This document shows positions 1-64,000 of a stretch of 64,000 bases of DNA, one piece after another (within the stretch, counting starts at the first letter, position 1; the number at the start of each line of letters is the position of its first letter). The DNA comes from Acholoe squamosa (taxonomy: Eukaryota > Annelida > Polychaeta > Phyllodocida > Polynoidae). The stretch lies in assembly GCA_949317995.1 (NCBI GenBank), contig OX439044.1:27662733-27726732 (forward strand). Direction: 5' to 3'. The position numbers were made by a program, and so were the translations under genes. Under the pieces are notes generated by a model that saw only the letters and a list, made by a program, of their open reading frames with translations, searched no databases and was not told the origin of the DNA.

Positions 1-262
1 TTTTTTCAAAGGTTAGATTGGAAATAGTGAATCTACATTTTATTCAGTGCAGATTTAGGCAGAATCAGGGTGTTTTTACGCGATAGTCCAGTGCTCAAAA
101 TTTTCGTGGTCAATTCATATTTTAAGTCAGCCTATATTATGAAGGAAAGATGTATCTATTAATTCTGGGGTGATTTTTAGAAAATGAACATGTTCCAATG
201 GGTGCTATCGCGTTTCGCGCTACATTAAATTATAGTGCGGAACCAATTCCTTCTGTGAGACC

Positions 263-1177
263 TAAAGCATACATGGGGGATTAGCATGAAGAAGGAAAAA
301 ACCCTTCAAATCAGTTCTTTTCTATATTAATTATTTAGAGAAGGATTGGTTTTGCCAAATTCTATGGAAAATATGTTCATAGGTCTCTAAAATGTGTCCA
401 AAATCAAGGAAAAATCATGTTTATATTGCTGTCGGAGTGGTCTGCAGGCCGCGCTGCAGGTTCATTTCAGTCTAGGCCCACTGGCATGGTGCAGATTATT
501 TTGATAGGCCCGATTTATTTTTTACCTTATTCTTAACAGGGTATGCATATCATATCTGTGTAGTATTGGCCACTTGCAGCTAGTCTAGGTAGTACAGAGA
601 GGGGTTATTTTTGCGCTTTGACATATCATCTGTATTAGTTAAGTTAGGCACTGACACCGCAAATGGTATATCTACCGCTTCAAGGAAACTATCCAGGGTA
701 TAATATTTTGGGACATTTCTTTGAAATCATCTAGAAATGTAGTATTGTATAACCCAGTATCCATGTTATGTACTCTCACAAATCTTCCCAGGCATGGCAT
801 GTGAATATTGTGTACTTTTTGCAGTGATTTTTATGTATTTTTCTACAATTTTTCATAATTTGTCAATTATATCCACAGTAAACTACAACAAGGACACTTA
901 CACCATATAGAGCAAGATCAAAAGAATATCCATGCCAAATTTGATGGTCCTAGAGGCACTGCTTGTCATGAAAATGACTCAAAGATGAAGAGGGCGGTGT
1001 CCTCGGACAGAGACATAGAAATCAGGCTGATTTTGGGTATAACTTGGCCTGAAAGGCACCCTATATCATGAGATAGAGTGGTCCAAGGAGCATAAAACCT
1101 AGGGGCCTGTGTAAAAACATCTATTGGATTATAAAAATCTCAATTATAGACAAGACATGCACACAGCCCATTAATAG
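263..1177. repeat. Satellite core monomer, 915 bp (representative)
   Basis: This is the first complete copy of the 915-bp core, running from the TA after one inverted-repeat element to the base before the TA that precedes the next. In two places (16314 and 29613) cores follow each other directly with a 915-bp spacing, which shows that 915 bp is a unit in its own right. No coding sequence, tRNA-like box or obvious transposon end was found in it. Confidence 0.85.
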
Positions 1178-1179
1178 TA

Positions 1180-1638
1180 GGTCTCAGTGAAGGAAATCCC
1201 GCAGAAAACCGGAAGTCATATACGATTGTGGTCAGAAGTGAATACTGCAGGCACACTGAATGGTCAATAACCATGTTGAAAATAATGCCAATAAATATAA
1301 AACCACTACACATGTTGTTGAACATTTGCTGCTTTGGATAAAATACCAGGAGGGCATTTCTCAAAGTGCTTACCCATTTTTTCAAAGGTTAGATTGGAAA
1401 TAGTGAATCTACATTTTATTCAGTGCAGATTTAGGCAGAATCAGGGTGTTTTTACGCGATAGTCCAGTGCTCAAAATTTTCGTGGTCAATTCATATTTTA
1501 AGTCAGCCTATATTATGAAGGAAAGATGTATCTATTAATTCTGGGGTGATTTTTAGAAAATGAACATGTTCCAATGGGTGCTATCGCGTTTCGCGCTACA
1601 TTAAATTATAGTGCGGAACCAATTCCTTCTGTGAGACC
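1180..1638. mobile_element. 459-bp TIR element embedded in every 1376-bp satellite unit (representative copy)
   Basis: The segment starts GGTCTCAGTGAAGGAAAT and ends with a sequence whose reverse complement is GGTCTCACAGAAGGAATT, so it has imperfect terminal inverted repeats of about 18 bp. It is flanked by TA on both sides (1178-1179 and 1639-1640). At 16314 and 29613 the same flanks meet with one TA and the 459 bp missing, which is what an unoccupied site looks like. A TA duplication is typical of Tc1/mariner-type and related DNA transposons. No transposase is present, so this is a MITE-like passenger. Superfamily assignment is an inference. The identical element recurs 23 times at 1376-bp spacing, except next to the two empty sites. 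Confidence 0.85.
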
Positions 1639-4600
1639 TAAAGCATACATGGGGGATTAGCATGAAGAAGGAAAAAACCCTTCAAATCAGTTCTTTTCTA
1701 TATTAATTATTTAGAGAAGGATTGGTTTTGCCAAATTCTATGGAAAATATGTTCATAGGTCTCTAAAATGTGTCCAAAATCAAGGAAAAATCATGTTTAT
1801 ATTGCTGTCGGAGTGGTCTGCAGGCCGCGCTGCAGGTTCATTTCAGTCTAGGCCCACTGGCATGGTGCAGATTATTTTGATAGGCCCGATTTATTTTTTA
1901 CCTTATTCTTAACAGGGTATGCATATCATATCTGTGTAGTATTGGCCACTTGCAGCTAGTCTAGGTAGTACAGAGAGGGGTTATTTTTGCGCTTTGACAT
2001 ATCATCTGTATTAGTTAAGTTAGGCACTGACACCGCAAATGGTATATCTACCGCTTCAAGGAAACTATCCAGGGTATAATATTTTGGGACATTTCTTTGA
2101 AATCATCTAGAAATGTAGTATTGTATAACCCAGTATCCATGTTATGTACTCTCACAAATCTTCCCAGGCATGGCATGTGAATATTGTGTACTTTTTGCAG
2201 TGATTTTTATGTATTTTTCTACAATTTTTCATAATTTGTCAATTATATCCACAGTAAACTACAACAAGGACACTTACACCATATAGAGCAAGATCAAAAG
2301 AATATCCATGCCAAATTTGATGGTCCTAGAGGCACTGCTTGTCATGAAAATGACTCAAAGATGAAGAGGGCGGTGTCCTCGGACAGAGACATAGAAATCA
2401 GGCTGATTTTGGGTATAACTTGGCCTGAAAGGCACCCTATATCATGAGATAGAGTGGTCCAAGGAGCATAAAACCTAGGGGCCTGTGTAAAAACATCTAT
2501 TGGATTATAAAAATCTCAATTATAGACAAGACATGCACACAGCCCATTAATAGTAGGTCTCAGTGAAGGAAATCCCGCAGAAAACCGGAAGTCATATACG
2601 ATTGTGGTCAGAAGTGAATACTGCAGGCACACTGAATGGTCAATAACCATGTTGAAAATAATGCCAATAAATATAAAACCACTACACATGTTGTTGAACA
2701 TTTGCTGCTTTGGATAAAATACCAGGAGGGCATTTCTCAAAGTGCTTACCCATTTTTTCAAAGGTTAGATTGGAAATAGTGAATCTACATTTTATTCAGT
2801 GCAGATTTAGGCAGAATCAGGGTGTTTTTACGCGATAGTCCAGTGCTCAAAATTTTCGTGGTCAATTCATATTTTAAGTCAGCCTATATTATGAAGGAAA
2901 GATGTATCTATTAATTCTGGGGTGATTTTTAGAAAATGAACATGTTCCAATGGGTGCTATCGCGTTTCGCGCTACATTAAATTATAGTGCGGAACCAATT
3001 CCTTCTGTGAGACCTAAAGCATACATGGGGGATTAGCATGAAGAAGGAAAAAACCCTTCAAATCAGTTCTTTTCTATATTAATTATTTAGAGAAGGATTG
3101 GTTTTGCCAAATTCTATGGAAAATATGTTCATAGGTCTCTAAAATGTGTCCAAAATCAAGGAAAAATCATGTTTATATTGCTGTCGGAGTGGTCTGCAGG
3201 CCGCGCTGCAGGTTCATTTCAGTCTAGGCCCACTGGCATGGTGCAGATTATTTTGATAGGCCCGATTTATTTTTTACCTTATTCTTAACAGGGTATGCAT
3301 ATCATATCTGTGTAGTATTGGCCACTTGCAGCTAGTCTAGGTAGTACAGAGAGGGGTTATTTTTGCGCTTTGACATATCATCTGTATTAGTTAAGTTAGG
3401 CACTGACACCGCAAATGGTATATCTACCGCTTCAAGGAAACTATCCAGGGTATAATATTTTGGGACATTTCTTTGAAATCATCTAGAAATGTAGTATTGT
3501 ATAACCCAGTATCCATGTTATGTACTCTCACAAATCTTCCCAGGCATGGCATGTGAATATTGTGTACTTTTTGCAGTGATTTTTATGTATTTTTCTACAA
3601 TTTTTCATAATTTGTCAATTATATCCACAGTAAACTACAACAAGGACACTTACACCATATAGAGCAAGATCAAAAGAATATCCATGCCAAATTTGATGGT
3701 CCTAGAGGCACTGCTTGTCATGAAAATGACTCAAAGATGAAGAGGGCGGTGTCCTCGGACAGAGACATAGAAATCAGGCTGATTTTGGGTATAACTTGGC
3801 CTGAAAGGCACCCTATATCATGAGATAGAGTGGTCCAAGGAGCATAAAACCTAGGGGCCTGTGTAAAAACATCTATTGGATTATAAAAATCTCAATTATA
3901 GACAAGACATGCACACAGCCCATTAATAGTAGGTCTCAGTGAAGGAAATCCCGCAGAAAACCGGAAGTCATATACGATTGTGGTCAGAAGTGAATACTGC
4001 AGGCACACTGAATGGTCAATAACCATGTTGAAAATAATGCCAATAAATATAAAACCACTACACATGTTGTTGAACATTTGCTGCTTTGGATAAAATACCA
4101 GGAGGGCATTTCTCAAAGTGCTTACCCATTTTTTCAAAGGTTAGATTGGAAATAGTGAATCTACATTTTATTCAGTGCAGATTTAGGCAGAATCAGGGTG
4201 TTTTTACGCGATAGTCCAGTGCTCAAAATTTTCGTGGTCAATTCATATTTTAAGTCAGCCTATATTATGAAGGAAAGATGTATCTATTAATTCTGGGGTG
4301 ATTTTTAGAAAATGAACATGTTCCAATGGGTGCTATCGCGTTTCGCGCTACATTAAATTATAGTGCGGAACCAATTCCTTCTGTGAGACCTAAAGCATAC
4401 ATGGGGGATTAGCATGAAGAAGGAAAAAACCCTTCAAATCAGTTCTTTTCTATATTAATTATTTAGAGAAGGATTGGTTTTGCCAAATTCTATGGAAAAT
4501 ATGTTCATAGGTCTCTAAAATGTGTCCAAAATCAAGGAAAAATCATGTTTATATTGCTGTCGGAGTGGTCTGCAGGCCGCGCTGCAGGTTCATTTCAGTC

Positions 4601-7600
4601 TAGGCCCACTGGCATGGTGCAGATTATTTTGATAGGCCCGATTTATTTTTTACCTTATTCTTAACAGGGTATGCATATCATATCTGTGTAGTATTGGCCA
4701 CTTGCAGCTAGTCTAGGTAGTACAGAGAGGGGTTATTTTTGCGCTTTGACATATCATCTGTATTAGTTAAGTTAGGCACTGACACCGCAAATGGTATATC
4801 TACCGCTTCAAGGAAACTATCCAGGGTATAATATTTTGGGACATTTCTTTAAAATCATCTAGAAATGTAGTATTGTATAACCCAGTATCCATGTTATGTA
4901 CTCTCACAAATCTTCCCAGGCATGGCATGTGAATATTGTGTACTTTTTGCAGTGATTTTTATGTATTTTTCTACAATTTTTCATAATTTGTCAATTATAT
5001 CCACAGTAAACTACAACAAGGACACTTACACCATATAGAGCAAGATCAAAAGAATATCCATGCCAAATTTGATGGTCCTAGAGGCACTGCTTGTCATGAA
5101 AATGACTCAAAGATGAAGAGGGCGGTGTCCTCGGACAGAGACATAGAAATCAGGCTGATTTTGGGTATAACTTGGCCTGAAAGGCACCCTATATCATGAG
5201 ATAGAGTGGTCCAAGGAGCATAAAACCTAGGGGCCTGTGTAAAAACATCTATTGGATTATAAAAATCTCAATTATAGACAAGACATGCACACAGCCCATT
5301 AATAGTAGGTCTCAGTGAAGGAAATCCCGCAGAAAACCGGAAGTCATATACGATTGTGGTCAGAAGTGAATACTGCAGGCACACTGAATGGTCAATAACC
5401 ATGTTGAAAATAATGCCAATAAATATAAAACCACTACACATGTTGTTGAACATTTGCTGCTTTGGATAAAATACCAGGAGGGCATTTCTCAAAGTGCTTA
5501 CCCATTTTTTCAAAGGTTAGATTGGAAATAGTGAATCTACATTTTATTCAGTGCAGATTTAGGCAGAATCAGGGTGTTTTTACGCGATAGTCCAGTGCTC
5601 AAAATTTTCGTGGTCAATTCATATTTTAAGTCAGCCTATATTATGAAGGAAAGATGTATCTATTAATTCTGGGGTGATTTTTAGAAAATGAACATGTTCC
5701 AATGGGTGCTATCGCGTTTCGCGCTACATTAAATTATAGTGCGGAACCAATTCCTTCTGTGAGACCTAAAGCATACATGGGGGATTAGCATGAAGAAGGA
5801 AAAAACCCTTCAAATCAGTTCTTTTCTATATTAATTATTTAGAGAAGGATTGGTTTTGCCAAATTCTATGGAAAATATGTTCATAGGTCTCTAAAATGTG
5901 TCCAAAATCAAGGAAAAATCATGTTTATATTGCTGTCGGAGTGGTCTGCAGGCCGCGCTGCAGGTTCATTTCAGTCTAGGCCCACTGGCATGGTGCAGAT
6001 TATTTTGATAGGCCCGATTTATTTTTTACCTTATTCTTAACAGGGTATGCATATCATATCTGTGTAGTATTGGCCACTTGCAGCTAGTCTAGGTAGTACA
6101 GAGAGGGGTTATTTTTGCGCTTTGACATATCATCTGTATTAGTTAAGTTAGGCACTGACACCGCAAATGGTATATCTACCGCTTCAAGGAAACTATCCAG
6201 GGTATAATATTTTGGGACATTTCTTTGAAATCATCTAGAAATGTAGTATTGTATAACCCAGTATCCATGTTATGTACTCTCACAAATCTTCCCAGGCATG
6301 GCATGTGAATATTGTGTACTTTTTGCAGTGATTTTTATGTATTTTTCTACAATTTTTCATAATTTGTCAATTATATCCACAGTAAACTACAACAAGGACA
6401 CTTACACCATATAGAGCAAGATCAAAAGAATATCCATGCCAAATTTGATGGTCCTAGAGGCACTGCTTGTCATGAAAATGACTCAAAGATGAAGAGGGCG
6501 GTGTCCTCGGACAGAGACATAGAAATCAGGCTGATTTTGGGTATAACTTGGCCTGAAAGGCACCCTATATCATGAGATAGAGTGGTCCAAGGAGCATAAA
6601 ACCTAGGGGCCTGTGTAAAAACATCTATTGGATTATAAAAATCTCAATTATAGACAAGACATGCACACAGCCCATTAATAGTAGGTCTCAGTGAAGGAAA
6701 TCCCGCAGAAAACCGGAAGTCATATACGATTGTGGTCAGAAGTGAATACTGCAGGCACACTGAATGGTCAATAACCATGTTGAAAATAATGCCAATAAAT
6801 ATAAAACCACTACACATGTTGTTGAACATTTGCTGCTTTGGATAAAATACCAGGAGGGCATTTCTCAAAGTGCTTACCCATTTTTTCAAAGGTTAGATTG
6901 GAAATAGTGAATCTACATTTTATTCAGTGCAGATTTAGGCAGAATCAGGGTGTTTTTACGCGATAGTCCAGTGCTCAAAATTTTCGTGGTCAATTCATAT
7001 TTTAAGTCAGCCTATATTATGAAGGAAAGATGTATCTATTAATTCTGGGGTGATTTTTAGAAAATGAACATGTTCCAATGGGTGCTATCGCGTTTCGCGC
7101 TACATTAAATTATAGTGCGGAACCAATTCCTTCTGTGAGACCTAAAGCATACATGGGGGATTAGCATGAAGAAGGAAAAAACCCTTCAAATCAGTTCTTT
7201 TCTATATTAATTATTTAGAGAAGGATTGGTTTTGCCAAATTCTATGGAAAATATGTTCATAGGTCTCTAAAATGTGTCCAAAATCAAGGAAAAATCATGT
7301 TTATATTGCTGTCGGAGTGGTCTGCAGGCCGCGCTGCAGGTTCATTTCAGTCTAGGCCCACTGGCATGGTGCAGATTATTTTGATAGGCCCGATTTATTT
7401 TTTACCTTATTCTTAACAGGGTATGCATATCATATCTGTGTAGTATTGGCCACTTGCAGCTAGTCTAGGTAGTACAGAGAGGGGTTATTTTTGCGCTTTG
7501 ACATATCATCTGTATTAGTTAAGTTAGGCACTGACACCGCAAATGGTATATCTACCGCTTCAAGGAAACTATCCAGGGTATAATATTTTGGGACATTTCT

Positions 7601-13600: not shown

Positions 13601-15398
13601 CATATACGATTGTGGTCAGAAGTGAATACTGCAGGCACACTGAATGGTCAATAACCATGTTGAAAATAATGCCAATAAATATAAAACCACTACACATGTT
13701 GTTGAACATTTGCTGCTTTGGATAAAATACCAGGAGGGCATTTCTCAAAGTGCTTACCCATTTTTTCAAAGGTTAGATTGGAAATAGTGAATCTACATTT
13801 TATTCAGTGCAGATTTAGGCAGAATCAGGGTGTTTTTACGCGATAGTCCAGTGCTCAAAATTTTCGTGGTCAATTCATATTTTAAGTCAGCCTATATTAT
13901 GAAGGAAAGATGTATCTATTAATTCTGGGGTGATTTTTAGAAAATGAACATGTTCCAATGGGTGCTATCGCGTTTCGCGCTACATTAAATTATAGTGCGG
14001 AACCAATTCCTTCTGTGAGACCTAAAGCATACATGGGGGATTAGCATGAAGAAGGAAAAAACCCTTCAAATCAGTTCTTTTCTATATTAATTATTTAGAG
14101 AAGGATTGGTTTTGCCAAATTCTATGGAAAATATGTTCATAGGTCTCTAAAATGTGTCCAAAATCAAGGAAAAATCATGTTTATATTGCTGTCGGAGTGG
14201 TCTGCAGGCCGCGCTGCAGGTTCATTTCAGTCTAGGCCCACTGGCATGGTGCAGATTATTTTGATAGGCCCGATTTATTTTTTACCTTATTCTTAACAGG
14301 GTATGCATATCATATCTGTGTAGTATTGGCCACTTGCAGCTAGTCTAGGTAGTACAGAGAGGGGTTATTTTTGCGCTTTGACATATCATCTGTATTAGTT
14401 AAGTTAGGCACTGACACCGCAAATGGTATATCTACCGCTTCAAGGAAACTATCCAGGGTATAATATTTTGGGACATTTCTTTGAAATCATCTAGAAATGT
14501 AGTATTGTATAACCCAGTATCCATGTTATGTACTCTCACAAATCTTCCCAGGCATGGCATGTGAATATTGTGTACTTTTTGCAGTGATCTTTATGTATTT
14601 TTCTACAATTTTTCATAATTTGTCAATTATATCCACAGTAAACTACAACAAGGACACTTACACCATATAGAGCAAGATCAAAAGAATATCCATGCCAAAT
14701 TTGATGGTCCTAGAGGCACTGCTTGTCATGAAAATGACTCAAAGATGAAGAGGGCGGTGTCCTCGGACAGAGACATAGAAATCAGGCTGATTTTGGGTAT
14801 AACTTGGCCTGAAAGGCACCCTATATCATGAGATAGAGTGGTCCAAGGAGCATAAAACCTAGGGGCCTGTGTAAAAACATCTATTGGATTATAAAAATCT
14901 CAATTATAGACAAGACATGCACACAGCCCATTAATAGTAGGTCTCAGTGAAGGAAATCCCGCAGAAAACCGGAAGTCATATACGATTGTGGTCAGAAGTG
15001 AATACTGCAGGCACACTGAATGGTCAATAACCATGTTGAAAATAATGCCAATAAATATAAAACCACTACACATGTTGTTGAACATTTGCTGCTTTGGATA
15101 AAATACCAGGAGGGCATTTCTCAAAGTGCTTACCCATTTTTTCAAAGGTTAGATTGGAAATAGTGAATCTACATTTTATTCAGTGCAGATTTAGGCAGAA
15201 TCAGGGTGTTTTTACGCGATAGTCCAGTGCTCAAAATTTTCGTGGTCAATTCATATTTTAAGTCAGCCTATATTATGAAGGAAAGATGTATCTATTAATT
15301 CTGGGGTGATTTTTAGAAAATGAACATGTTCCAATGGGTGCTATCGCGTTTCGCGCTACATTAAATTATAGTGCGGAACCAATTCCTTCTGTGAGACC

Positions 15399-17228
15399 TA
15401 AAGCATACATGGGGGATTAGCATGAAGAAGGAAAAAACCCTTCAAATCAGTTCTTTTCTATATTAATTATTTAGAGAAGGATTGGTTTTGCCAAATTCTA
15501 TGGAAAATATGTTCATAGGTCTCTAAAATGTGTCCAAAATCAAGGAAAAATCATGTTTATATTGCTGTCGGAGTGGTCTGCAGGCCGCGCTGCAGGTTCA
15601 TTTCAGTCTAGGCCCACTGGCATGGTGCAGATTATTTTGATAGGCCCGATTTATTTTTTACCTTATTCTTAACAGGGTATGCATATCATATCTGTGTAGT
15701 ATTGGCCACTTGCAGCTAGTCTAGGTAGTACAGAGAGGGGTTATTTTTGCGCTTTGACATATCATCTGTATTAGTTAAGTTAGGCACTGACACCGCAAAT
15801 GGTATATCTACCGCTTCAAGGAAACTATCCAGGGTATAATATTTTGGGACATTTCTTTGAAATCATCTAGAAATGTAGTATTGTATAACCCAGTATCCAT
15901 GTTATGTACTCTCACAAATCTTCCCAGGCATGGCATGTGAATATTGTGTACTTTTTGCAGTGATTTTTATGTATTTTTCTACAATTTTTCATAATTTGTC
16001 AATTATATCCACAGTAAACTACAACAAGGACACTTACACCATATAGAGCAAGATCAAAAGAATATCCATGCCAAATTTGATGGTCCTAGAGGCACTGCTT
16101 GTCATGAAAATGACTCAAAGATGAAGAGGGCGGTGTCCTCGGACAGAGACATAGAAATCAGGCTGATTTTGGGTATAACTTGGCCTGAAAGGCACCCTAT
16201 ATCATGAGATAGAGTGGTCCAAGGAGCATAAAACCTAGGGGCCTGTGTAAAAACATCTATTGGATTATAAAAATCTCAATTATAGACAAGACATGCACAC
16301 AGCCCATTAATAGTAAAGCATACATGGGGGATTAGCATGAAGAAGGAAAAAACCCTTCAAATCAGTTCTTTTCTATATTAATTATTTAGAGAAGGATTGG
16401 TTTTGCCAAATTCTATGGAAAATATGTTCATAGGTCTCTAAAATGTGTCCAAAATCAAGGAAAAATCATGTTTATATTGCTGTCGGAGTGGTCTGCAGGC
16501 CGCGCTGCAGGTTCATTTCAGTCTAGGCCCACTGGCATGGTGCAGATTATTTTGATAGGCCCGATTTATTTTTTACCTTATTCTTAACAGGGTATGCATA
16601 TCATATCTGTGTAGTATTGGCCACTTGCAGCTAGTCTAGGTAGTACAGAGAGGGGTTATTTTTGCGCTTTGACATATCATCTGTATTAGTTAAGTTAGGC
16701 ACTGACACCGCAAATGGTATATCTACCGCTTCAAGGAAACTATCCAGGGTATAATATTTTGGGACATTTCTTTGAAATCATCTAGAAATGTAGTATTGTA
16801 TAACCCAGTATCCATGTTATGTACTCTCACAAATCTTCCCAGGCATGGCATGTGAATATTGTGTACTTTTTGCAGTGATTTTTATGTATTTTTCTACAAT
16901 TTTTCATAATTTGTCAATTATATCCACAGTAAACTACAACAAGGACACTTACACCATATAGAGCAAGATCAAAAGAATATCCATGCCAAATTTGATGGTC
17001 CTAGAGGCACTGCTTGTCATGAAAATGACTCAAAGATGAAGAGGGCGGTGTCCTCGGACAGAGACATAGAAATCAGGCTGATTTTGGGTATAACTTGGCC
17101 TGAAAGGCACCCTATATCATGAGATAGAGTGGTCCAAGGAGCATAAAACCTAGGGGCCTGTGTAAAAACATCTATTGGATTATAAAAATCTCAATTATAG
17201 ACAAGACATGCACACAGCCCATTAATAG
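15399..17228. repeat. Two adjacent 915-bp cores with an empty insertion site at 16314
   Basis: Core copies 15399-16313 and 16314-17228 abut. The junction reads AATAG-TA-AAGCA, with one TA where other units have TA-element-TA. The spacing between neighbouring units is 2291 bp (1376 plus 915) instead of 1376. Confidence 0.93.
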
Positions 17229-20200
17229 TAGGTCTCAGTGAAGGAAATCCCGCAGAAAACCGGAAGTCATATACGATTGTGGTCAGAAGTGAATACTGCA
17301 GGCACACTGAATGGTCAATAACCATGTTGAAAATAATGCCAATAAATATAAAACCACTACACATGTTGTTGAACATTTGCTGCTTTGGATAAAATACCAG
17401 GAGGGCATTTCTCAAAGTGCTTACCCATTTTTTCAAAGGTTAGATTGGAAATAGTGAATCTACATTTTATTCAGTGCAGATTTAGGCAGAATCAGGGTGT
17501 TTTTACGCGATAGTCCAGTGCTCAAAATTTTCGTGGTCAATTCATATTTTAAGTCAGCCTATATTATGAAGGAAAGATGTATCTATTAATTCTGGGGTGA
17601 TTTTTAGAAAATGAACATGTTCCAATGGGTGCTATCGCGTTTCGCGCTACATTAAATTATAGTGCGGAACCAATTCCTTCTGTGAGACCTAAAGCATACA
17701 TGGGGGATTAGCATGAAGAAGGAAAAAACCCTTCAAATCAGTTCTTTTCTATATTAATTATTTAGAGAAGGATTGGTTTTGCCAAATTCTATGGAAAATA
17801 TGTTCATAGGTCTCTAAAATGTGTCCAAAATCAAGGAAAAATCATGTTTATATTGCTGTCGGAGTGGTCTGCAGGCCGCGCTGCAGGTTCATTTCAGTCT
17901 AGGCCCACTGGCATGGTGCAGATTATTTTGATAGGCCCGATTTATTTTTTACCTTATTCTTAACAGGGTATGCATATCATATCTGTGTAGTATTGGCCAC
18001 TTGCAGCTAGTCTAGGTAGTACAGAGAGGGGTTATTTTTGCGCTTTGACATATCATCTGTATTAGTTAAGTTAGGCACTGACACCGCAAATGGTATATCT
18101 ACCGCTTCAAGGAAACTATCCAGGGTATAATATTTTGGGACATTTCTTTGAAATCATCTAGAAATGTAGTATTGTATAACCCAGTATCCATGTTATGTAC
18201 TCTCACAAATCTTCCCAGGCATGGCATGTGAATATTGTGTACTTTTTGCAGTGATTTTTATGTATTTTTCTACAATTTTTCATAATTTGTCAATTATATC
18301 CACAGTAAACTACAACAAGGACACTTACACCATATAGAGCAAGATCAAAAGAATATCCATGCCAAATTTGATGGTCCTAGAGGCACTGCTTGTCATGAAA
18401 ATGACTCAAAGATGAAGAGGGCGGTGTCCTCGGACAGAGACATAGAAATCAGGCTGATTTTGGGTATAACTTGGCCTGAAAGGCACCCTATATCATGAGA
18501 TAGAGTGGTCCAAGGAGCATAAAACCTAGGGGCCTGTGTAAAAACATCTATTGGATTATAAAAATCTCAATTATAGACAAGACATGCACACAGCCCATTA
18601 ATAGTAGGTCTCAGTGAAGGAAATCCCGCAGAAAACCGGAAGTCATATACGATTGTGGTCAGAAGTGAATACTGCAGGCACACTGAATGGTCAATAACCA
18701 TGTTGAAAATAATGCCAATAAATATAAAACCACTACACATGTTGTTGAACATTTGCTGCTTTGGATAAAATACCAGGAGGGCATTTCTCAAAGTGCTTAC
18801 CCATTTTTTCAAAGGTTAGATTGGAAATAGTGAATCTACATTTTATTCAGTGCAGATTTAGGCAGAATCAGGGTGTTTTTACGCGATAGTCCAGTGCTCA
18901 AAATTTTCGTGGTCAATTCATATTTTAAGTCAGCCTATATTATGAAGGAAAGATGTATCTATTAATTCTGGGGTGATTTTTAGAAAATGAACATGTTCCA
19001 ATGGGTGCTATCGCGTTTCGCGCTACATTAAATTATAGTGCGGAACCAATTCCTTCTGTGAGACCTAAAGCATACATGGGGGATTAGCATGAAGAAGGAA
19101 AAAACCCTTCAAATCAGTTCTTTTCTATATTAATTATTTAGAGAAGGATTGGTTTTGCCAAATTCTATGGAAAATATGTTCATAGGTCTCTAAAATGTGT
19201 CCAAAATCAAGGAAAAATCATGTTTATATTGCTGTCGGAGTGGTCTGCAGGCCGCGCTGCAGGTTCATTTCAGTCTAGGCCCACTGGCATGGTGCAGATT
19301 ATTTTGATAGGCCCGATTTATTTTTTACCTTATTCTTAACAGGGTATGCATATCATATCTGTGTAGTATTGGCCACTTGCAGCTAGTCTAGGTAGTACAG
19401 AGAGGGGTTATTTTTGCGCTTTGACATATCATCTGTATTAGTTAAGTTAGGCACTGACACCGCAAATGGTATATCTACCGCTTCAAGGAAACTATCCAGG
19501 GTATAATATTTTGGGACATTTCTTTGAAATCATCTAGAAATGTAGTATTGTATAACCCAGTATCCATGTTATGTACTCTCACAAATCTTCCCAGGCATGG
19601 CATGTGAATATTGTGTACTTTTTGCAGTGATTTTTATGTATTTTTCTACAATTTTTCATAATTTGTCAATTATATCCACAGTAAACTACAACAAGGACAC
19701 TTACACCATATAGAGCAAGATCAAAAGAATATCCATGCCAAATTTGATGGTCCTAGAGGCACTGCTTGTCATGAAAATGACTCAAAGATGAAGAGGGCGG
19801 TGTCCTCGGACAGAGACATAGAAATCAGGCTGATTTTGGGTATAACTTGGCCTGAAAGGCACCCTATATCATGAGATAGAGTGGTCCAAGGAGCATAAAA
19901 CCTAGGGGCCTGTGTAAAAACATCTATTGGATTATAAAAATCTCAATTATAGACAAGACATGCACACAGCCCATTAATAGTAGGTCTCAGTGAAGGAAAT
20001 CCCGCAGAAAACCGGAAGTCATATACGATTGTGGTCAGAAGTGAATACTGCAGGCACACTGAATGGTCAATAACCATGTTGAAAATAATGCCAATAAATA
20101 TAAAACCACTACACATGTTGTTGAACATTTGCTGCTTTGGATAAAATACCAGGAGGGCATTTCTCAAAGTGCTTACCCATTTTTTCAAAGGTTAGATTGG

Positions 20201-23200: not shown

Positions 23201-26200
23201 TACATGGGGGATTAGCATGAAGAAGGAAAAAACCCTTCAAATCAGTTCTTTTCTATATTAATTATTTAGAGAAGGATTGGTTTTGCCAAATTCTATGGAA
23301 AATATGTTCATAGGTCTCTAAAATGTGTCCAAAATCAAGGAAAAATCATGTTTATATTGCTGTCGGAGTGGTCTGCAGGCCGCGCTGCAGGTTCATTTCA
23401 GTCTAGGCCCACTGGCATGGTGCAGATTATTTTGATAGGCCCGATTTATTTTTTACCTTATTCTTAACAGGGTATGCATATCATATCTGTGTAGTATTGG
23501 CCACTTGCAGCTAGTCTAGGTAGTACAGAGAGGGGTTATTTTTGCGCTTTGACATATCATCTGTATTAGTTAAGTTAGGCACTGACACCGCAAATGGTAT
23601 ATCTACCGCTTCAAGGAAACTATCCAGGGTATAATATTTTGGGACATTTCTTTGAAATCATCTAGAAATGTAGTATTGTATAACCCAGTATCCATGTTAT
23701 GTACTCTCACAAATCTTCCCAGGCATGGCATGTGAATATTGTGTACTTTTTGCAGTGATTTTTATGTATTTTTCTACAATTTTTCATAATTTGTCAATTA
23801 TATCCACAGTAAACTACAACAAGGACACTTACACCATATAGAGCAAGATCAAAAGAATATCCATGCCAAATTTGATGGTCCTAGAGGCACTGCTTGTCAT
23901 GAAAATGACTCAAAGATGAAGAGGGCGGTGTCCTCGGACAGAGACATAGAAATCAGGCTGATTTTGGGTATAACTTGGCCTGAAAGGCACCCTATATCAT
24001 GAGATAGAGTGGTCCAAGGAGCATAAAACCTAGGGGCCTGTGTAAAAACATCTATTGGATTATAAAAATCTCAATTATAGACAAGACATGCACACAGCCC
24101 ATTAATAGTAGGTCTCAGTGAAGGAAATCCCGCAGAAAACCGGAAGTCATATACGATTGTGGTCAGAAGTGAATACTGCAGGCACACTGAATGGTCAATA
24201 ACCATGTTGAAAATAATGCCAATAAATATAAAACCACTACACATGTTGTTGAACATTTGCTGCTTTGGATAAAATACCAGGAGGGCATTTCTCAAAGTGC
24301 TTACCCATTTTTTCAAAGGTTAGATTGGAAATAGTGAATCTACATTTTATTCAGTGCAGATTTAGGCAGAATCAGGGTGTTTTTACGCGATAGTCCAGTG
24401 CTCAAAATTTTCGTGGTCAATTCATATTTTAAGTCAGCCTATATTATGAAGGAAAGATGTATCTATTAATTCTGGGGTGATTTTTAGAAAATGAACATGT
24501 TCCAATGGGTGCTATCGCGTTTCGCGCTACATTAAATTATAGTGCGGAACCAATTCCTTCTGTGAGACCTAAAGCATACATGGGGGATTAGCATGAAGAA
24601 GGAAAAAACCCTTCAAATCAGTTCTTTTCTATATTAATTATTTAGAGAAGGATTGGTTTTGCCAAATTCTATGGAAAATATGTTCATAGGTCTCTAAAAT
24701 GTGTCCAAAATCAAGGAAAAATCATGTTTATATTGCTGTCGGAGTGGTCTGCAGGCCGCGCTGCAGGTTCATTTCAGTCTAGGCCCACTGGCATGGTGCA
24801 GATTATTTTGATAGGCCCGATTTATTTTTTACCTTATTCTTAACAGGGTATGCATATCATATCTGTGTAGTATTGGCCACTTGCAGCTAGTCTAGGTAGT
24901 ACAGAGAGGGGTTATTTTTGCGCTTTGACATATCATCTGTATTAGTTAAGTTAGGCACTGACACCGCAAATGGTATATCTACCGCTTCAAGGAAACTATC
25001 CAGGGTATAATATTTTGGGACATTTCTTTGAAATCATCTAGAAATGTAGTATTGTATAACCCAGTATCCATGTTATGTACTCTCACAAATCTTCCCAGGC
25101 ATGGCATGTGAATATTGTGTACTTTTTGCAGTGATTTTTATGTATTTTTCTACAATTTTTCATAATTTGTCAATTATATCCACAGTAAACTACAACAAGG
25201 ACACTTACACCATATAGAGCAAGATCAAAAGAATATCCATGCCAAATTTGATGGTCCTAGAGGCACTGCTTGTCATGAAAATGACTCAAAGATGAAGAGG
25301 GCGGTGTCCTCGGACAGAGACATAGAAATCAGGCTGATTTTGGGTATAACTTGGCCTGAAAGGCACCCTATATCATGAGATAGAGTGGTCCAAGGAGCAT
25401 AAAACCTAGGGGCCTGTGTAAAAACATCTATTGGATTATAAAAATCTCAATTATAGACAAGACATGCACACAGCCCATTAATAGTAGGTCTCAGTGAAGG
25501 AAATCCCGCAGAAAACCGGAAGTCATATACGATTGTGGTCAGAAGTGAATACTGCAGGCACACTGAATGGTCAATAACCATGTTGAAAATAATGCCAATA
25601 AATATAAAACCACTACACATGTTGTTGAACATTTGCTGCTTTGGATAAAATACCAGGAGGGCATTTCTCAAAGTGCTTACCCATTTTTTCAAAGGTTAGA
25701 TTGGAAATAGTGAATCTACATTTTATTCAGTGCAGATTTAGGCAGAATCAGGGTGTTTTTACGCGATAGTCCAGTGCTCAAAATTTTCGTGGTCAATTCA
25801 TATTTTAAGTCAGCCTATATTATGAAGGAAAGATGTATCTATTAATTCTGGGGTGATTTTTAGAAAATGAACATGTTCCAATGGGTGCTATCGCGTTTCG
25901 CGCTACATTAAATTATAGTGCGGAACCAATTCCTTCTGTGAGACCTAAAGCATACATGGGGGATTAGCATGAAGAAGGAAAAAACCCTTCAAATCAGTTC
26001 TTTTCTATATTAATTATTTAGAGAAGGATTGGTTTTGCCAAATTCTATGGAAAATATGTTCATAGGTCTCTAAAATGTGTCCAAAATCAAGGAAAAATCA
26101 TGTTTATATTGCTGTCGGAGTGGTCTGCAGGCCGCGCTGCAGGTTCATTTCAGTCTAGGCCCACTGGCATGGTGCAGATTATTTTGATAGGCCCGATTTA

Positions 26201-28697
26201 TTTTTTACCTTATTCTTAACAGGGTATGCATATCATATCTGTGTAGTATTGGCCACTTGCAGCTAGTCTAGGTAGTACAGAGAGGGGTTATTTTTGCGCT
26301 TTGACATATCATCTGTATTAGTTAAGTTAGGCACTGACACCGCAAATGGTATATCTACCGCTTCAAGGAAACTATCCAGGGTATAATATTTTGGGACATT
26401 TCTTTGAAATCATCTAGAAATGTAGTATTGTATAACCCAGTATCCATGTTATGTACTCTCACAAATCTTCCCAGGCATGGCATGTGAATATTGTGTACTT
26501 TTTGCAGTGATTTTTATGTATTTTTCTACAATTTTTCATAATTTGTCAATTATATCCACAGTAAACTACAACAAGGACACTTACACCATATAGAGCAAGA
26601 TCAAAAGAATATCCATGCCAAATTTGATGGTCCTAGAGGCACTGCTTGTCATGAAAATGACTCAAAGATGAAGAGGGCGGTGTCCTCGGACAGAGACATA
26701 GAAATCAGGCTGATTTTGGGTATAACTTGGCCTGAAAGGCACCCTATATCATGAGATAGAGTGGTCCAAGGAGCATAAAACCTAGGGGCCTGTGTAAAAA
26801 CATCTATTGGATTATAAAAATCTCAATTATAGACAAGACATGCACACAGCCCATTAATAGTAGGTCTCAGTGAAGGAAATCCCGCAGAAAACCGGAAGTC
26901 ATATACGATTGTGGTCAGAAGTGAATACTGCAGGCACACTGAATGGTCAATAACCATGTTGAAAATAATGCCAATAAATATAAAACCACTACACATGTTG
27001 TTGAACATTTGCTGCTTTGGATAAAATACCAGGAGGGCATTTCTCAAAGTGCTTACCCATTTTTTCAAAGGTTAGATTGGAAATAGTGAATCTACATTTT
27101 ATTCAGTGCAGATTTAGGCAGAATCAGGGTGTTTTTACGCGATAGTCCAGTGCTCAAAATTTTCGTGGTCAATTCATATTTTAAGTCAGCCTATATTATG
27201 AAGGAAAGATGTATCTATTAATTCTGGGGTGATTTTTAGAAAATGAACATGTTCCAATGGGTGCTATCGCGTTTCGCGCTACATTAAATTATAGTGCGGA
27301 ACCAATTCCTTCTGTGAGACCTAAAGCATACATGGGGGATTAGCATGAAGAAGGAAAAAACCCTTCAAATCAGTTCTTTTCTATATTAATTATTTAGAGA
27401 AGGATTGGTTTTGCCAAATTCTATGGAAAATATGTTCATAGGTCTCTAAAATGTGTCCAAAATCAAGGAAAAATCATGTTTATATTGCTGTCGGAGTGGT
27501 CTGCAGGCCGCGCTGCAGGTTCATTTCAGTCTAGGCCCACTGGCATGGTGCAGATTATTTTGATAGGCCCGATTTATTTTTTACCTTATTCTTAACAGGG
27601 TATGCATATCATATCTGTGTAGTATTGGCCACTTGCAGCTAGTCTAGGTAGTACAGAGAGGGGTTATTTTTGCGCTTTGACATATCATCTGTATTAGTTA
27701 AGTTAGGCACTGACACCGCAAATGGTATATCTACCGCTTCAAGGAAACTATCCAGGGTATAATATTTTGGGACATTTCTTTGAAATCATCTAGAAATGTA
27801 GTATTGTATAACCCAGTATCCATGTTATGTACTCTCACAAATCTTCCCAGGCATGGCATGTGAATATTGTGTACTTTTTGCAGTGATTTTTATGTATTTT
27901 TCTACAATTTTTCATAATTTGTCAATTATATCCACAGTAAACTACAACAAGGACACTTACACCATATAGAGCAAGATCAAAAGAATATCCATGCCAAATT
28001 TGATGGTCCTAGAGGCACTGCTTGTCATGAAAATGACTCAAAGATGAAGAGGGCGGTGTCCTCGGACAGAGACATAGAAATCAGGCTGATTTTGGGTATA
28101 ACTTGGCCTGAAAGGCACCCTATATCATGAGATAGAGTGGTCCAAGGAGCATAAAACCTAGGGGCCTGTGTAAAAACATCTATTGGATTATAAAAATCTC
28201 AATTATAGACAAGACATGCACACAGCCCATTAATAGTAGGTCTCAGTGAAGGAAATCCCGCAGAAAACCGGAAGTCATATACGATTGTGGTCAGAAGTGA
28301 ATACTGCAGGCACACTGAATGGTCAATAACCATGTTGAAAATAATGCCAATAAATATAAAACCACTACACATGTTGTTGAACATTTGCTGCTTTGGATAA
28401 AATACCAGGAGGGCATTTCTCAAAGTGCTTACCCATTTTTTCAAAGGTTAGATTGGAAATAGTGAATCTACATTTTATTCAGTGCAGATTTAGGCAGAAT
28501 CAGGGTGTTTTTACGCGATAGTCCAGTGCTCAAAATTTTCGTGGTCAATTCATATTTTAAGTCAGCCTATATTATGAAGGAAAGATGTATCTATTAATTC
28601 TGGGGTGATTTTTAGAAAATGAACATGTTCCAATGGGTGCTATCGCGTTTCGCGCTACATTAAATTATAGTGCGGAACCAATTCCTTCTGTGAGACC

Positions 28698-30522
28698 TAA
28701 AGCATACATGGGGGATTAGCATGAAGAAGGAAAAAACCCTTCAAATCAGTTCTTTTCTATATTAATTATTTAGAGAAGGATTGGTTTTGCCAAATTCTAT
28801 GGAAAATATGTTCATAGGTCTCTAAAATGTGTCCAAAATCAAGGAAAAATCATGTTTATATTGCTGTCGGAGTGGTCTGCAGGCCGCGCTGCAGGTTCAT
28901 TTCAGTCTAGGCCCACTGGCATGGTGCAGATTATTTTGATAGGCCCGATTTATTTTTTACCTTATTCTTAACAGGGTATGCATATCATATCTGTGTAGTA
29001 TTGGCCACTTGCAGCTAGTCTAGGTAGTACAGAGAGGGGTTATTTTTGCGCTTTGACATATCATCTGTATTAGTTAAGTTAGGCACTGACACCGCAAATG
29101 GTATATCTACCGCTTCAAGGAAACTATCCAGGGTATAATATTTTGGGACATTTCTTTGAAATCATCTAGAAATGTAGTATTGTATAACCCAGTATCCATG
29201 TTATGTACTCTCACAAATCTTCCCAGGCATGGCATGTGAATATTGTGTACTTTTTGCAGTGATTTTTATGTATTTTTCTACAATTTTTCATAATTTGTCA
29301 ATTATATCCACAGTAAACTACAACAAGGACACTTACACCATATAGAGCAAGATCAAAAGAATATCCATGCCAAATTTGATGGTCCTAGAGGCACTGCTTG
29401 TCATGAAAATGACTCAAAGATGAAGAGGGCGGTGTCCTCGGACAGAGACATAGAAATCAGGCTGATTTTGGGTATAACTTGGCCTGAAAGGCACCCTATA
29501 TCATGAGATAGAGTGGTCCAAGGAGCATAAAACCTAGGGGCCTGTGTAAAAACATCTATTGGATTATAAAAATCTCAATTATAGACAAGACATGCACACA
29601 GCCCATTAATAGTAAAGCATACATGGGGGATTAGCATGAAGAAGGAAAAAACCCTTCAAATCAGTTCTTTTCTATATTAATTATTTAGAGAAGGATTGGT
29701 TTTGCCAAATTCTATGGAAAATATGTTCATAGGTCTCTAAAATGTGTCCAAAATCAAGGAAAAATCATGTTTATATTGCTGTCGGAGTGGTCTGCAGGCC
29801 GCGCTGCAGGTTCATTTCAGTCTAGGCCCACTGGCATGGTGCAGATTATTTTGATAGGCCCGATTTATTTTTTACCTTATTCTTAACAGGGTATGCATAT
29901 CATATCTGTGTAGTATTGGCCACTTGCAGCTAGTCTAGGTAGTACAGAGAGGGGTTATTTTTGCGCTTTGACATATCATCTGTATTAGTTAAGTTAGGCA
30001 CTGACACCGCAAATGGTATATCTACCGCTTCAAGGAAACTATCCAGGGTATAATATTTTGGGACATTTCTTTGAAATCATCTAGAAATGTAGTATTGTAT
30101 AACCCAGTATCCATGTTATGTACTCTCACAGGCATGGCATGGCATGTGAATATTGTGTACTTTTTGCAGTGATTTTTATGTATTTTTCTACAATTTTTCA
30201 TAATTTGTCAATTATATCCACAGTAAACTACAACAAGGACACTTACACCATATAGAGCAAGATCAAAAGAATATCCATGCCAAATTTGATGGTCCTAGAG
30301 GCACTGCTTGTCATGAAAATGACTCAAAGATGAAGAGGGCGGTGTCCTCGGACAGAGACATAGAAATCAGGCTGATTTTGGGTATAACTTGGCCTGAAAG
30401 GCACCCTATATCATGAGATAGAGTGGTCCAAGGAGCATAAAACCTAGGGGCCTGTGTAAAAACATCTATTGGATTATAAAAATCTCAATTATAGACAAGA
30501 CATGCACACAGCCCATTAATAG
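28698..30522. repeat. Second pair of adjacent cores with an empty insertion site at 29613
   Basis: The same element-free junction recurs exactly 13299 bp after the first (nine 1376-bp units plus one 915-bp core). The second core of this pair (29613-30522) is 910 bp because of a small replacement at about 30130, where CAAATCTTCC is lost and GGCAT is repeated. Confidence 0.93.
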
Positions 30523-33276
30523 TAGGTCTCAGTGAAGGAAATCCCGCAGAAAACCGGAAGTCATATACGATTGTGGTCAGAAGTGAATACTGCAGGCACA
30601 CTGAATGGTCAATAACCATGTTGAAAATAATGCCAATAAATATAAAACCACTACACATGTTGTTGAACATTTGCTGCTTTGGATAAAATACCAGGAGGGC
30701 ATTTCTCAAAGTGCTTACCCATTTTTTCAAAGGTTAGATTGGAAATAGTGAATCTACATTTTATTCAGTGCAGATTTAGGCAGAATCAGGGTGTTTTTAC
30801 GCGATAGTCCAGTGCTCAAAATTTTCGTGGTCAATTCATATTTTAAGTCAGCCTATATTATGAAGGAAAGATGTATCTATTAATTCTGGGGTGATTTTTA
30901 GAAAATGAACATGTTCCAATGGGTGCTATCGCGTTTCGCGCTACATTAAATTATAGTGCGGAACCAATTCCTTCTGTGAGACCTAAAGCATACATGGGGG
31001 ATTAGCATGAAGAAGGAAAAAACCCTTCAAATCAGTTCTTTTCTATATTAATTATTTAGAGAAGGATTGGTTTTGCCAAATTCTATGGAAAATATGTTCA
31101 TAGGTCTCTAAAATGTGTCCAAAATCAAGGAAAAATCATGTTTATATTGCTGTCGGAGTGGTCTGCAGGCCGCGCTGCAGGTTCATTTCAGTCTAGGCCC
31201 ACTGGCATGGTGCAGATTATTTTGATAGGCCCGATTTATTTTTTACCTTATTCTTAACAGGGTATGCATATCATATCTGTGTAGTATTGGCCACTTGCAG
31301 CTAGTCTAGGTAGTACAGAGAGGGGTTATTTTTGCGCTTTGACATATCATCTGTATTAGTTAAGTTAGGCACTGACACCGCAAATGGTATATCTACCGCT
31401 TCAAGGAAACTATCCAGGGTATAATATTTTGGGACATTTCTTTGAAATCATCTAGAAATGTAGTATTGTATAACCCAGTATCCATGTTATGTACTCTCAC
31501 AAATCTTCCCAGGCATGGCATGTGAATATTGTGTACTTTTTGCAGTGATTTTTATGTATTTTTCTACAATTTTTCATAATTTGTCAATTATATCCACAGT
31601 AAACTACAACAAGGACACTTACACCATATAGAGCAAGATCAAAAGAATATCCATGCCAAATTTGATGGTCCTAGAGGCACTGCTTGTCATGAAAATGACT
31701 CAAAGATGAAGAGGGCGGTGTCCTCGGACAGAGACATAGAAATCAGGCTGATTTTGGGTATAACTTGGCCTGAAAGGCACCCTATATCATGAGATAGAGT
31801 GGTCCAAGGAGCATAAAACCTAGGGGCCTGTGTAAAAACATCTATTGGATTATAAAAATCTCAATTATAGACAAGACATGCACACAGCCCATTAATAGTA
31901 GGTCTCAGTGAAGGAAATCCCGCAGAAAACCGGAAGTCATATACGATTGTGGTCAGAAGTGAATACTGCAGGCACACTGAATGGTCAATAACCATGTTGA
32001 AAATAATGCCAATAAATATAAAACCACTACACATGTTGTTGAACATTTGCTGCTTTGGATAAAATACCAGGAGGGCATTTCTCAAAGTGCTTACCCATTT
32101 TTTCAAAGGTTAGATTGGAAATAGTGAATCTACATTTTATTCAGTGCAGATTTAGGCAGAATCAGGGTGTTTTTACGCGATAGTCCAGTGCTCAAAATTT
32201 TCGTGGTCAATTCATATTTTAAGTCAGCCTATATTATGAAGGAAAGATGTATCTATTAATTCTGGGGTGATTTTTAGAAAATGAACATGTTCCAAAGGGT
32301 GCTATCGCGTTTCGCGCTACATTAAATTATAGTGCGGAACCAATTCCTTCTGTGAGACCTAAAGCATACATGGGGGATTAGCATGAAGAAGGAAAAAACC
32401 CTTCAAATCAGTTCTTTTCTATATTAATTATTTAGAGAAGGATTGGTTTTGCCAAATTCTATGGAAAATATGTTCATAGGTCTCTAAAATGTGTCCAAAA
32501 TCAAGGAAAAATCATGTTTATATTGCTGTCGGAGTGGTCTGCAGGCCGCGCTGCAGGTTCATTTCAGTCTAGGCCCACTGGCATGGTGCAGATTATTTTG
32601 ATAGGCCCGATTTATTTTTTACCTTATTCTTAACAGGGTATGCATATCATATCTGTGTAGTATTGGCCACTTGCAGCTAGTCTAGGTAGTACAGAGAGGG
32701 GTTATTTTTGCGCTTTGACATATCATCTGTATTAGTTAAGTTAGGCACTGACACCGCAAATGGTATATCTACCGCTTCAAGGAAACTATCCAGGGTATAA
32801 TATTTTGGGACATTTCTTTGAAATCATCTAGAAATGTAGTATTGTATAACCCAGTATCCATGTTATGTACTCTCACAAATCTTCCCAGGCATGGCATGTG
32901 AATATTGTGTACTTTTTGCAGTGATTTTTATGTATTTTTCTACAATTTTTCATAATTTGTCAATTATATCCACAGTAAACTACAACAAGGACACTTACAC
33001 CATATAGAGCAAGATCAAAAGAATATCCATGCCAAATTTGATGGTCCTAGAGGCACTGCTTGTCATGAAAATGACTCAAAGATGAAGAGGGCGGTGTCCT
33101 CGGACAGAGACATAGAAATCAGGCTGATTTTGGGTATAACTTGGCCTGAAAGGCACCCTATATCATGAGATAGAGTGGTCCAAGGAGCATAAAACCTAGG
33201 GGCCTGTGTAAAAACATCTATTGGATTATAAAAATCTCAATTATAGACAAGACATGCACACAGCCCATTAATAGTA

Positions 33277-33735
33277 GGTCTCAGTGAAGGAAATCCCGCA
33301 GAAAACCGGAAGTCATATACGATTGTGGTCAGAAGTGAATACTGCAGGCACACTGAATGGTCAATAACCATGTTGAAAATAATGCCAATAAATATAAAAC
33401 CACTACACATGTTGTTGAACATTTGCTGCTTTGGATAAAATACCAGGAGGGCATTTCTCAAAGTGCTTACCCATTTTTTCAAAGGTTAGATTGGAAATAG
33501 TGAATCTACATTTTATTCAGTGCAGATTTAGGCAGAATCAGGGTGTTTTTACGCGATAGTCCAGTGCTCAAAATTTTCGTGGTCAATTCATATTTTAAGT
33601 CAGCCTATATTATGAAGGAAAGATGTATCTATTAATTCTGGGGTGATTTTTAGAAAATGAACATGTTCCAATGGGTGCTATCGCGTTTCGCGCTACATTA
33701 AATTATAGTGCGGAACCAATTCCTTCTGTGAGACC
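33277..33735. mobile_element. Last TIR element copy, forming the right edge of the satellite array
   Basis: This copy is complete, ending in GAGACC at 33735, but the next bases are TTTATTAG instead of TAAAGCAT. The array therefore stops at the element terminus and not at a random point within the unit. Confidence 0.9.
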
Positions 33736-34060
33736 TTTATTAGTGTTCTCTGAAGCGCCTCTGCTTGAAGAGTGGTGCTTCCCGTGTGTACACAAATGGC
33801 AGGATGTTGAAGGTACATGCAGTAAGAAGGGTTGATATTTCTTGAATTGTGAGTCCCTAATGCTATGATACACTTTCTAATTATTGCTCAAATAGAAAAC
33901 AACATATAGCTTACGTCAGAGGTACAAATGTTGGTCTAATATCCCTAGATTTTAGCAAATCTATACGACAAAATAACAGTAGGGAGTGGTTATTTATCAA
34001 CTGGGCCGGGCACGGGCCAGCCTCTGTCCACGTCTGCGTCTACTCTACCCTACCCACGGT
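33736..34060. other. Unique DNA beside the satellite, no gene seen
   Basis: No open frame with gene-like features, splice-supported exon or recognisable repeat was found. The last nine bases (34052-34060, ACCCACGGT) are the left target duplication of the next element. Confidence 0.5.
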
Positions 34061-35053
34061 AGCGAAGTCAGTCAAAAATCATTGATACAACAGAATCTCG
34101 CAAGTCATACACCAAATGATAGGTCTAAAAGAGTGTAATCCATAGGTTTTTAAATCAAATTGATACTCGTACTTGAGGCGCTTTTACGACAATTTAAAAT
34201 TCTGGAATGTGAATATTTTTCTGTCACTACCGACCCTGCAATTTGGCCCAAATATTGATAAGAGACTGATAATTAAACATGCTGCGCGCACTGGAGATTT
34301 CTACAGCATTGTACTTAATGGGTGATAAATTTTGACTGAATTGGCAGATCCACTTACCAATTATACCACTTTAAAGCTGAATATTACCAGAGTAACATAT
34401 CCAAAGGACATTGCTATAAGAAAGGTATAAGTATTTTAAAGTTTAGGTTGAATTCAGAAGTTTTGATGATTTGCTGTTGAAAATTTTGGTATGATGCATT
34501 CAGTAGATTAAAAATCGCAGCCCTGTAGCTGTTAAAACTAGCCAAATTCTGATAAACAAGATCCTATAGAATCACCCTGTATGTCCTGATAGCTTCTGCA
34601 CTAAATGATTATTTTGGAAAATATGTCCAAAGTTATATAAGTTTACCAGACCGCCCTGCTCGTAATAACCAGTCAATATTTCGCAAAATCTCCTTAAAAT
34701 GTAGGTTTTCATGTTGGCTACAGATTTGCAAGATCATATTTTATCTAATGTATAGTAGAAAGGGGAATATTCATGTATTTCTATAATAAGTGCAAGGCTG
34801 CTCAGCTGACTCACATTGTGGTCTGGCAGAATCATTAAGTTCACTTAACAGTTGACTGCCTGAATTTGCCAAAAAAAAACAACCAGCTGAATGAAGCAAA
34901 ATATTGGTTCAGGGTTGTAGAGTTAGGTTTTACCTTTCATTTGATACCAATTTGAAGTAATTCTGTCCAGTAGAACCCTCAGGGTCAATATTTTACCAGT
35001 CTATCATAGTGACAGATACGGGGAGCATGCAGCCTGATTCAGCTGACTTCGCT
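34061..35053. mobile_element. 993-bp non-autonomous TIR element with 9-bp target-site duplication
   Basis: The element is bounded by the 11-bp inverted ends AGCGAAGTCAG...CTGACTTCGCT. Directly outside lie identical 9-bp direct repeats, ACCCACGGT, at 34052-34060 and 35054-35062. No transposase frame is present. A 9-bp duplication is compatible with Mutator-like or Merlin-like families, but the short ends do not settle which. If the terminal T/A is counted within the repeat, the duplication could be read as 7-8 bp. Confidence 0.75.
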
Positions 35054-35062
35054 ACCCACGGT

Positions 35063-35798: not shown

Positions 35799-35948
35799 TA
35801 AAGGTGAACGATGATGAGTGTTTGGCAACAATTATTTCCCGAGCTGGTTTGGGCCGTTCCGCACGAGGGCGGAAGGCCGAGTGCAGAGCGGCCCAAACCT
35901 GCGAGGGAAATAATTAGGAGCCAAACACTCATCAGAGTTCATCTTTAC
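35799..35948. repeat. Foldback (inverted) repeat, inner arm pair
   Basis: The left arm 35799-35856 and the right arm 35889-35948 are reverse complements with few mismatches. They share a GATGAGTGTTTGG stretch, an AATTATTTCCC stretch and GGTTTGGGCCG. The 32-bp loop contains a smaller TTCCGC/GCGGAA hairpin. This is the structure of a foldback MITE. Confidence 0.85.
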
Positions 35949-36296: not shown

Positions 36297-36484
36297 GTTC
36301 AAATATTACTTAACACCATAGTAGGGGAGGGGGTTCATGAAGTTTGTTACACTTTGTGACAGGAGGAGGGGGGGTCTGCCCAAGTTTTACATAACAAAAA
36401 TGGTAAAATGTCTCACATGACAAAAGTAGACTATTTACAAGCATTTGAACCCCTAAACACAACTCAAGAATTGAATGTTCTCAT

Positions 36485-38601: not shown

Positions 38602-38686
<85 letters not shown>

Positions 38687-63600: not shown

Positions 63601-64000
63601 GTGAGTTGTATTTCCAACTTTTTATATGATCACCCAGAACTGATGTGTTATTAAAGTTTTAATCAATCATTATGAACCTGGGACATGGCCAGACAAATGT
63701 TAGTTCTCTTAATATGTGAATAACCATTGTGTATTACATATTGTATGCCTCATCTTCACCTATATACATCGTATCATTATATTCATTAGAATTTGCTGGA
63801 AAAATGAAACTGTTGTATGACTAAAAGGAATCACCATATTGTCAGATTTCATCACTCATTTTAATTAGTGACTTGACAATAAAAACCTTCAACCTTTAAA
63901 AATTTAAAGCAGAATAAGTATATCAAGTTATGGCTTCTTTACTTAGAATCTTCTACCCTGTGTTATCGCCTTTCTCGTTACTCATACTTTCCGTTCAGTC

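Follow-up and report, generated by a model that had tools for sequence, protein, structure and literature searches.

A satellite-like array in the polychaete Acholoe squamosa whose repeat unit incorporates a probable TIR element

Satellite arrays that carry mobile elements

Bovine satellites 1.711b and 1.715 are a classical case of a satellite that carries an insert. In Messor ants, satellite DNA holds both the MITE IRE-130 and the mariner element Mboumar, and the accessible text of the original report places five Mboumar copies at one TA of IRE-130 (PMC2581405). MITE-linked satellites are treated in two reviews (PMC12628747 and PMC9659126), the second of which, in the part available, includes the Messor case in its Table 1. 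According to the available part of the first, the Xenopus elements miDNA4 and Xstir connect the amplification of a MITE with that of tandem repeats (PMC12628747). Mollusc satellites are described, in the accessible text, as having mobile elements in their monomers and abrupt edges, which for one satellite fall non-randomly within a palindrome (PMC5139131). Finally, reversed-ends transposition in maize has yielded duplications of which nine of nine have end points that coincide with Ac termini (PMC3744419), and such events can trigger re-replication (PMC4270019), as far as the available portions of these two papers go.

We analysed a stretch of 64,000 nucleotides (hereafter the window, in whose numbering all positions are given) from contig OX439044.1 of the Acholoe squamosa assembly GCA_949317995.1, positions 27,662,733 to 27,726,732 of the forward strand. 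Bases 1-33735 are a young, local, tandem and satellite-like array (Table 1), which leaves the window at its left edge and has its right end at 33735. Satellite units that have taken up a TIR element are a known type, of which this array is a new case, and literature searches that were not aimed at the organism gave no title describing this particular unit among the matches listed. Its repeat unit comprises a 459-bp segment, here called E, and the remainder, here called the core; both lengths and coordinates agree with the initial annotation, which had described a 1376-bp unit made of a core and a 459-bp element with inverted GGTCTCA ends and a TA duplication. By motif scans and pairwise unit alignments, the window contains 25 cores, 23 complete copies of E and one partial copy (window positions 1-262), all head-to-tail on the + strand. 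Successive units are spaced at 1376 bp, with two exceptions (16314 and 29613) where neighbouring cores lie 915 bp apart, and the interval after the 29613 core is 1371 bp, as that core is 5 bp shorter. Satellite DNA is recognised by many homogenised, head-to-tail, non-coding copies, and here 21 of the 25 cores are identical, matching the consensus over 917 bp. Abundance, with a heterochromatic location or several arrays, is a further mark of satellite DNA, and the analysis covered this one array.

Table 1. Positions of the array, its components and its right flank in the window
Feature	Positions	Strand	Basis
Tandem array of 1376-bp units (E + core)	1..33735	.	Motif scans and unit alignment
Representative E, 459-bp TIR element, GGTCTCAGTGAAGGAA...TTCCTTCTGTGAGACC, TA on either side	17231..17689	+	Alignment, inverted-end and segment tests
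Representative consensus core, 917 bp with both flanking TAs counted	17690..18606	+	Unit alignment
Empty-site junction 1: core-TA-core, single TA at 16314-16315, no E	16303..16327	+	Motif scan, alignment
Empty-site junction 2: single TA at 29613-29614, no E	29602..29626	+	Motif scan, alignment
Core after empty site 2, 912 bp, private rearrangement (AATCTTCCCA to an extra GGCAT)	29613..30524	+	Alignment
Last E, whose right terminus forms the array's right edge and is followed by TTTATTAG instead of TA and core	33277..33735	+	Sequence reading, alignment
Flank adjoining the array edge, no above-chance similarity to E or core	33736..33980	.	Similarity search

The likeness of this array to the Messor case lies in the combination of a short TIR element and a TA-duplicating transposon within a satellite and in the use of the same TA in several copies (PMC2581405, PMC9659126). 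Here, however, E is regular, nearly invariant and found at 22 of 24 junctions, and the available text on the Messor element does not tell whether it is a regular part of the unit. In Xenopus, the tandem repeat is described as lying inside the MITE or deriving from it, whereas here a whole TIR element stands between cores (PMC12628747, in its accessible part). The one visible edge of our array is placed on the terminus of a TIR element, which differs from what the available text reports for molluscs (PMC5139131). The maize events have in common with this locus that the end points of duplication are transposon termini and that the element separates the duplicated segments (PMC3744419, PMC4270019). 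In contrast to the large maize duplications, which the accessible accounts attribute to an hAT element with 8-bp target duplications, the unit here measures 1.4 kb, has at least 25 copies and is flanked by TA.

The 459-bp element and its empty sites

E is very likely an inserted TIR element. Its termini read GGTCTCA...TGAGACC, and 14 of the 16 terminal bases are inverted-repeated; among 200 dinucleotide shuffles of E, no end-anchored inverted match exceeded 10 of 16. We also treated the unit as a circle and examined its 1,651,200 sub-segments of 100-1299 bp, of which 118,332 have a 2-bp direct repeat at their flanks. Of these, E is the only one whose inverted ends match at 14 or more of 16 positions, and therefore the segment that is absent at the short junctions is the only tested TIR-like one with a 2-bp duplication. 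When the flank condition is dropped, six segments reach 14 of 16, all of them shifted or complementary forms of the inverted repeat of E.

The window holds 24 core-to-core junctions, 22 with E and two (those at 16314 and 29613) with one TA and no E. The short junctions read CATTAATAG-TA-AAGCATACATG, also given as CATTAATAG-TA-AAGCATAC, which is the sequence of an E-bearing junction minus E and one TA. Alignment thus bears out the original observation that the core junction is exactly restored at both places, with 461 bp absent. These two 915-bp junctions are exact empty sites in the assembly, in which an error at the empty junctions or at the array edge is possible. The distance between them is 13299 bp (9 x 1376 + 915). 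A strict higher-order repeat with this period was rejected, as E is present at 3015, one period upstream of 16314.

These are properties expected of a MITE or other non-autonomous TIR DNA transposon. Besides its TIRs, E has TA on both sides and matching empty sites with a single TA at two junctions (the last E of the array has TA at its left side only), and it is short and, as far as the ORF and Pfam scans go, non-coding. ORFs of at least 50 aa that overlap 14940-17700 are limited to an 81-aa frame on the minus strand, present in two copies; it spans the E/core boundary and has no Pfam match at an E-value of 0.01. The TA target-site duplication is also a property of the Tc1/mariner superfamily and is not exclusive to it; membership of E in that superfamily is not claimed beyond this duplication.

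Other identities were considered for the repeated sequences. An Rfam scan of the window at gathering scores gave no match and a tRNA scan found none, and an array of a known RNA gene is ruled out as far as these two scans go. E was also rejected as a long foldback, since single-stranded DNA folding gave no clear excess (z -1.26, with 11 of 100 shuffles doing as well). Dispersed copies at other genomic sites are a further mark of MITEs, and no second copy of E is present in the other 30 kb of the window. Exact words of 30 bases from the core and 37 bases from E had no matches in viral contigs, and an exact 29-base word from E had none in prokaryote contigs; no matches were expected in either case.

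Proposed order of insertion, amplification and loss

E and the core are equally and extremely young, or equally homogenised, because there is one variant among the 23 complete copies of E and there are four among the 25 cores. Specifically, 22 complete copies of E are identical and the remaining one carries a single substitution, 396T>A. Among the cores, 461G>A occurs once, the complex change that shortens the 29613 core occurs once, and 567T>C is found in two non-adjacent cores, two units apart (11271 and 14023). The 567C doubleton suggests that one change can come to occupy two units that are not neighbours, unless 567C arose twice, and therefore one loss event could be enough for both empty sites. 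At 2 of 24 junctions, the empty form falls in the same low-frequency class as these other variants (461A, 567C, the indel and E 396A), which are presumed to be derived. Four cores touch the empty junctions (15399, 16314, 28698 and 29613), three of them consensus and the fourth carrying the private rearrangement at 29613. They have no private variant in common, and therefore nothing marks the 915-bp copies as relics.

We believe that the most satisfactory account, to which we give a probability of about 0.55, is that E inserted before amplification, that the empty junctions are later precise losses and that the ends of E acted as break points. Under this account, E would have entered an ancestral core before the present copies were amplified, and the composite unit would then have multiplied by unequal exchange or by rolling-circle-like copying. 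The two 915-bp junctions would be later precise losses of E, either one event spread by exchange or two events, more probably than survivors of an older 915-bp satellite. Cutting or deletion at the ends of E might have been carried out by a transposase acting in trans, or favoured by a TIR hairpin and TA microhomology, and a deletion between the two TAs aided by TIR pairing is another candidate route of loss. With break points at the ends of E, both the exact losses and the position of the array edge at a terminus of E would be explained.

The frequency of the empty form was compared under the two histories by simulating unequal exchange in a neutral array of 24 units whose size was kept constant; exchange blocks spanned 1-6 units, and each history was run in 40,000 trials. 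A state with two empty sites received about 11 times more visits per loss event than per insertion event, and a state with two non-adjacent empty sites, as observed, about 12 times more; the latter was reached in 48% of the loss trials and 3% of the insertion trials. In this simple neutral model, loss is favoured over insertion by about 11- to 12-fold per founding event, a factor that presupposes that insertion and precise loss are equally frequent and says nothing about their relative rates. Against loss stands the fact that an insertion is needed in either history, such that precise loss is an extra and probably rare event. According to the accessible part of PMC4561436, a footprint usually remains where Stowaway-like MITEs and mariner elements have excised, and precise loss is therefore counted as unusual for a TA-flanked element. 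The same text describes the excision of Tourist/Harbinger elements as generally precise (PMC4561436).

A substantial though still doubtful alternative is that a homogeneous 915-bp satellite came first, that E inserted once at a TA in one unit, and that unequal exchange or conversion then carried the E-bearing unit through the array, leaving the sites at 16314 and 29613 as surviving originals. This history accounts for exact empty sites with one TA and does so without an extra loss event, and satellite DNA that holds MITE and mariner elements is known from the available text on Messor ants (PMC2581405). However, none of the cores adjoining the empty sites carries an older shared variant, an ancestral form at 2 of 24 junctions is visited about 11-12 times less often per founding event in the simulation, and no reason is given for an array edge at the terminus of E. 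A pre-existing 915-bp satellite is thus one of the two main readings, the one less favoured on frequency.

It was also the history preferred in the initial annotation, with precise loss named as its alternative. What stands of that proposal is that E resembles a TIR element that entered at a TA and that the empty sites are exact; the pre-existing satellite itself is unsupported, as the empty units lack older variation. Precise loss, in turn, gains from the frequencies in the simulation and is weakened by the usual footprints of TA-duplicating elements in the available text of PMC4561436.

The array edge and the possible part played by the element

Position 33735, the right end of the array, is also the last base of the right inverted terminus of E, a coincidence that does not appear in the initial annotation. 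The chance that a random edge would fall on either end of E is about 2/1376, although this is one edge and one observation, noticed after looking. The coincidence suggests that the ends of E served as break or join points. It is possible that the edge formed by a late break at the end of E that was repaired to other DNA, or that a tandem duplication was founded there. Since E is not followed by TA at the edge, a standard TA insertion does not account for the edge. An imperfect target duplication of 10 bp, matching the core end ATTAATAGTA to the flank TTTATTAGTG at 7 of 10 positions, was rejected as too weak (P 0.007 at length 10 alone and 0.033 over lengths 4-12). Apart from an overlap of 37 bp with E itself, the best match to the unit anywhere in the 30-kb flank has an E-value of 0.14.

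The rest of the window contains repeats and ORFs of its own. Near the edge, 33981-37809 is a diverged, larger DNA-transposon-like element with imperfect inverted ends beginning AGGGAGTGG and CAGT on both sides. Within it, at 34058-35056, a perfect 14-bp inverted repeat (GGTAGCGAAGTCAG/CTGACTTCGCTACC, about 1 kb apart) might mark a second, nested element. A long inverted repeat at 54451-56897 (arms 54451-55615 and 55930-56897, with 94-95% identity apart from a 180-bp insertion in one of them) has 16-bp tandem sub-repeats in both arms and resembles a foldback element. A dispersed repeat of about 180 bp has three copies with 91.6-92.8% mutual identity (54905-55084, 52716-52898 and 36655-36837), the first of which interrupts an arm of the long inverted repeat. 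The array is close to a gene, since an ORF at 38875-39978 (+) with Pfam MFS_5 (E-value 2.3e-63) and MFS_1 matches starts 5.1 kb from the array edge; just upstream of this ORF lies a perfect (AT)39.5 microsatellite (38605-38683). A degenerate C+T-rich tandem repeat with 16-bp and 45-bp periods and the consensus CTGCATTGCCTCCCTC occupies 61194-61516. The ORFs at 48.9-63.6 kb might belong to an HPS5-like gene, an impression that was not confirmed, as those at 48908-49186, 58236-59171 and 63200-63601 have no Pfam match at an E-value of 0.01.

The position of the edge is the main attraction of another reading, which we consider improbable, that alternative transposition built the array. A transposase would have linked the right-hand terminus of one E to a TA that lay in a nearby or sister copy, producing tandem duplications that end at the termini of E. 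On this reading, and at the same low likelihood, the junctions between E and TA-core would be transposition junctions, and the junction between E and TTTATTAG would preserve the original right flank of the element. Alternative transposition is expected to leave edges at element termini together with target-site duplications. The right edge is exactly the right terminus of E, but it is followed by TTTATTAG and not by TA, and the left edge of the array lies beyond the window. In addition, the six ORFs scanned with Pfam include no transposase, the maize cases involve Ac/hAT elements with 8-bp target duplications and few copies rather than TA elements in arrays, and unequal exchange suffices for the copy number.

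The weakest alternative, that site-specific targeting brought E separately and repeatedly to the same TA in every 915-bp unit, is very improbable: it would fit the identity of 22 of the 23 complete copies, the two unoccupied sites and the hot spot that five Mboumar copies at one TA of IRE-130 had suggested in ants, but every copy of E has a single orientation and a single TA of the unit, the available text on the ants reports that the hot spot was not reproduced in vitro (PMC2581405), and one insertion with co-amplification explains the pattern.

A larger role for the element can also be envisaged than the insertion, amplification and later loss that we prefer. It is conceivable, although rather unlikely, that the satellite was founded and trimmed by E. 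Its termini would then have been the points of breakage and joining in the tandem duplications, whether these arose through alternative transposition or through re-replication, and likewise at the array edge and at the two junctions that lost E exactly. If true, the MITE would be the engine of the satellite and not its passenger. In old, diverged arrays, the steps by which a satellite unit acquires a transposon are difficult to reconstruct. In the present case, a nearly mutation-free array with exact empty sites and an edge at an element terminus makes the order of insertion and amplification, and the possible role of cutting at the ends of the element, directly testable.
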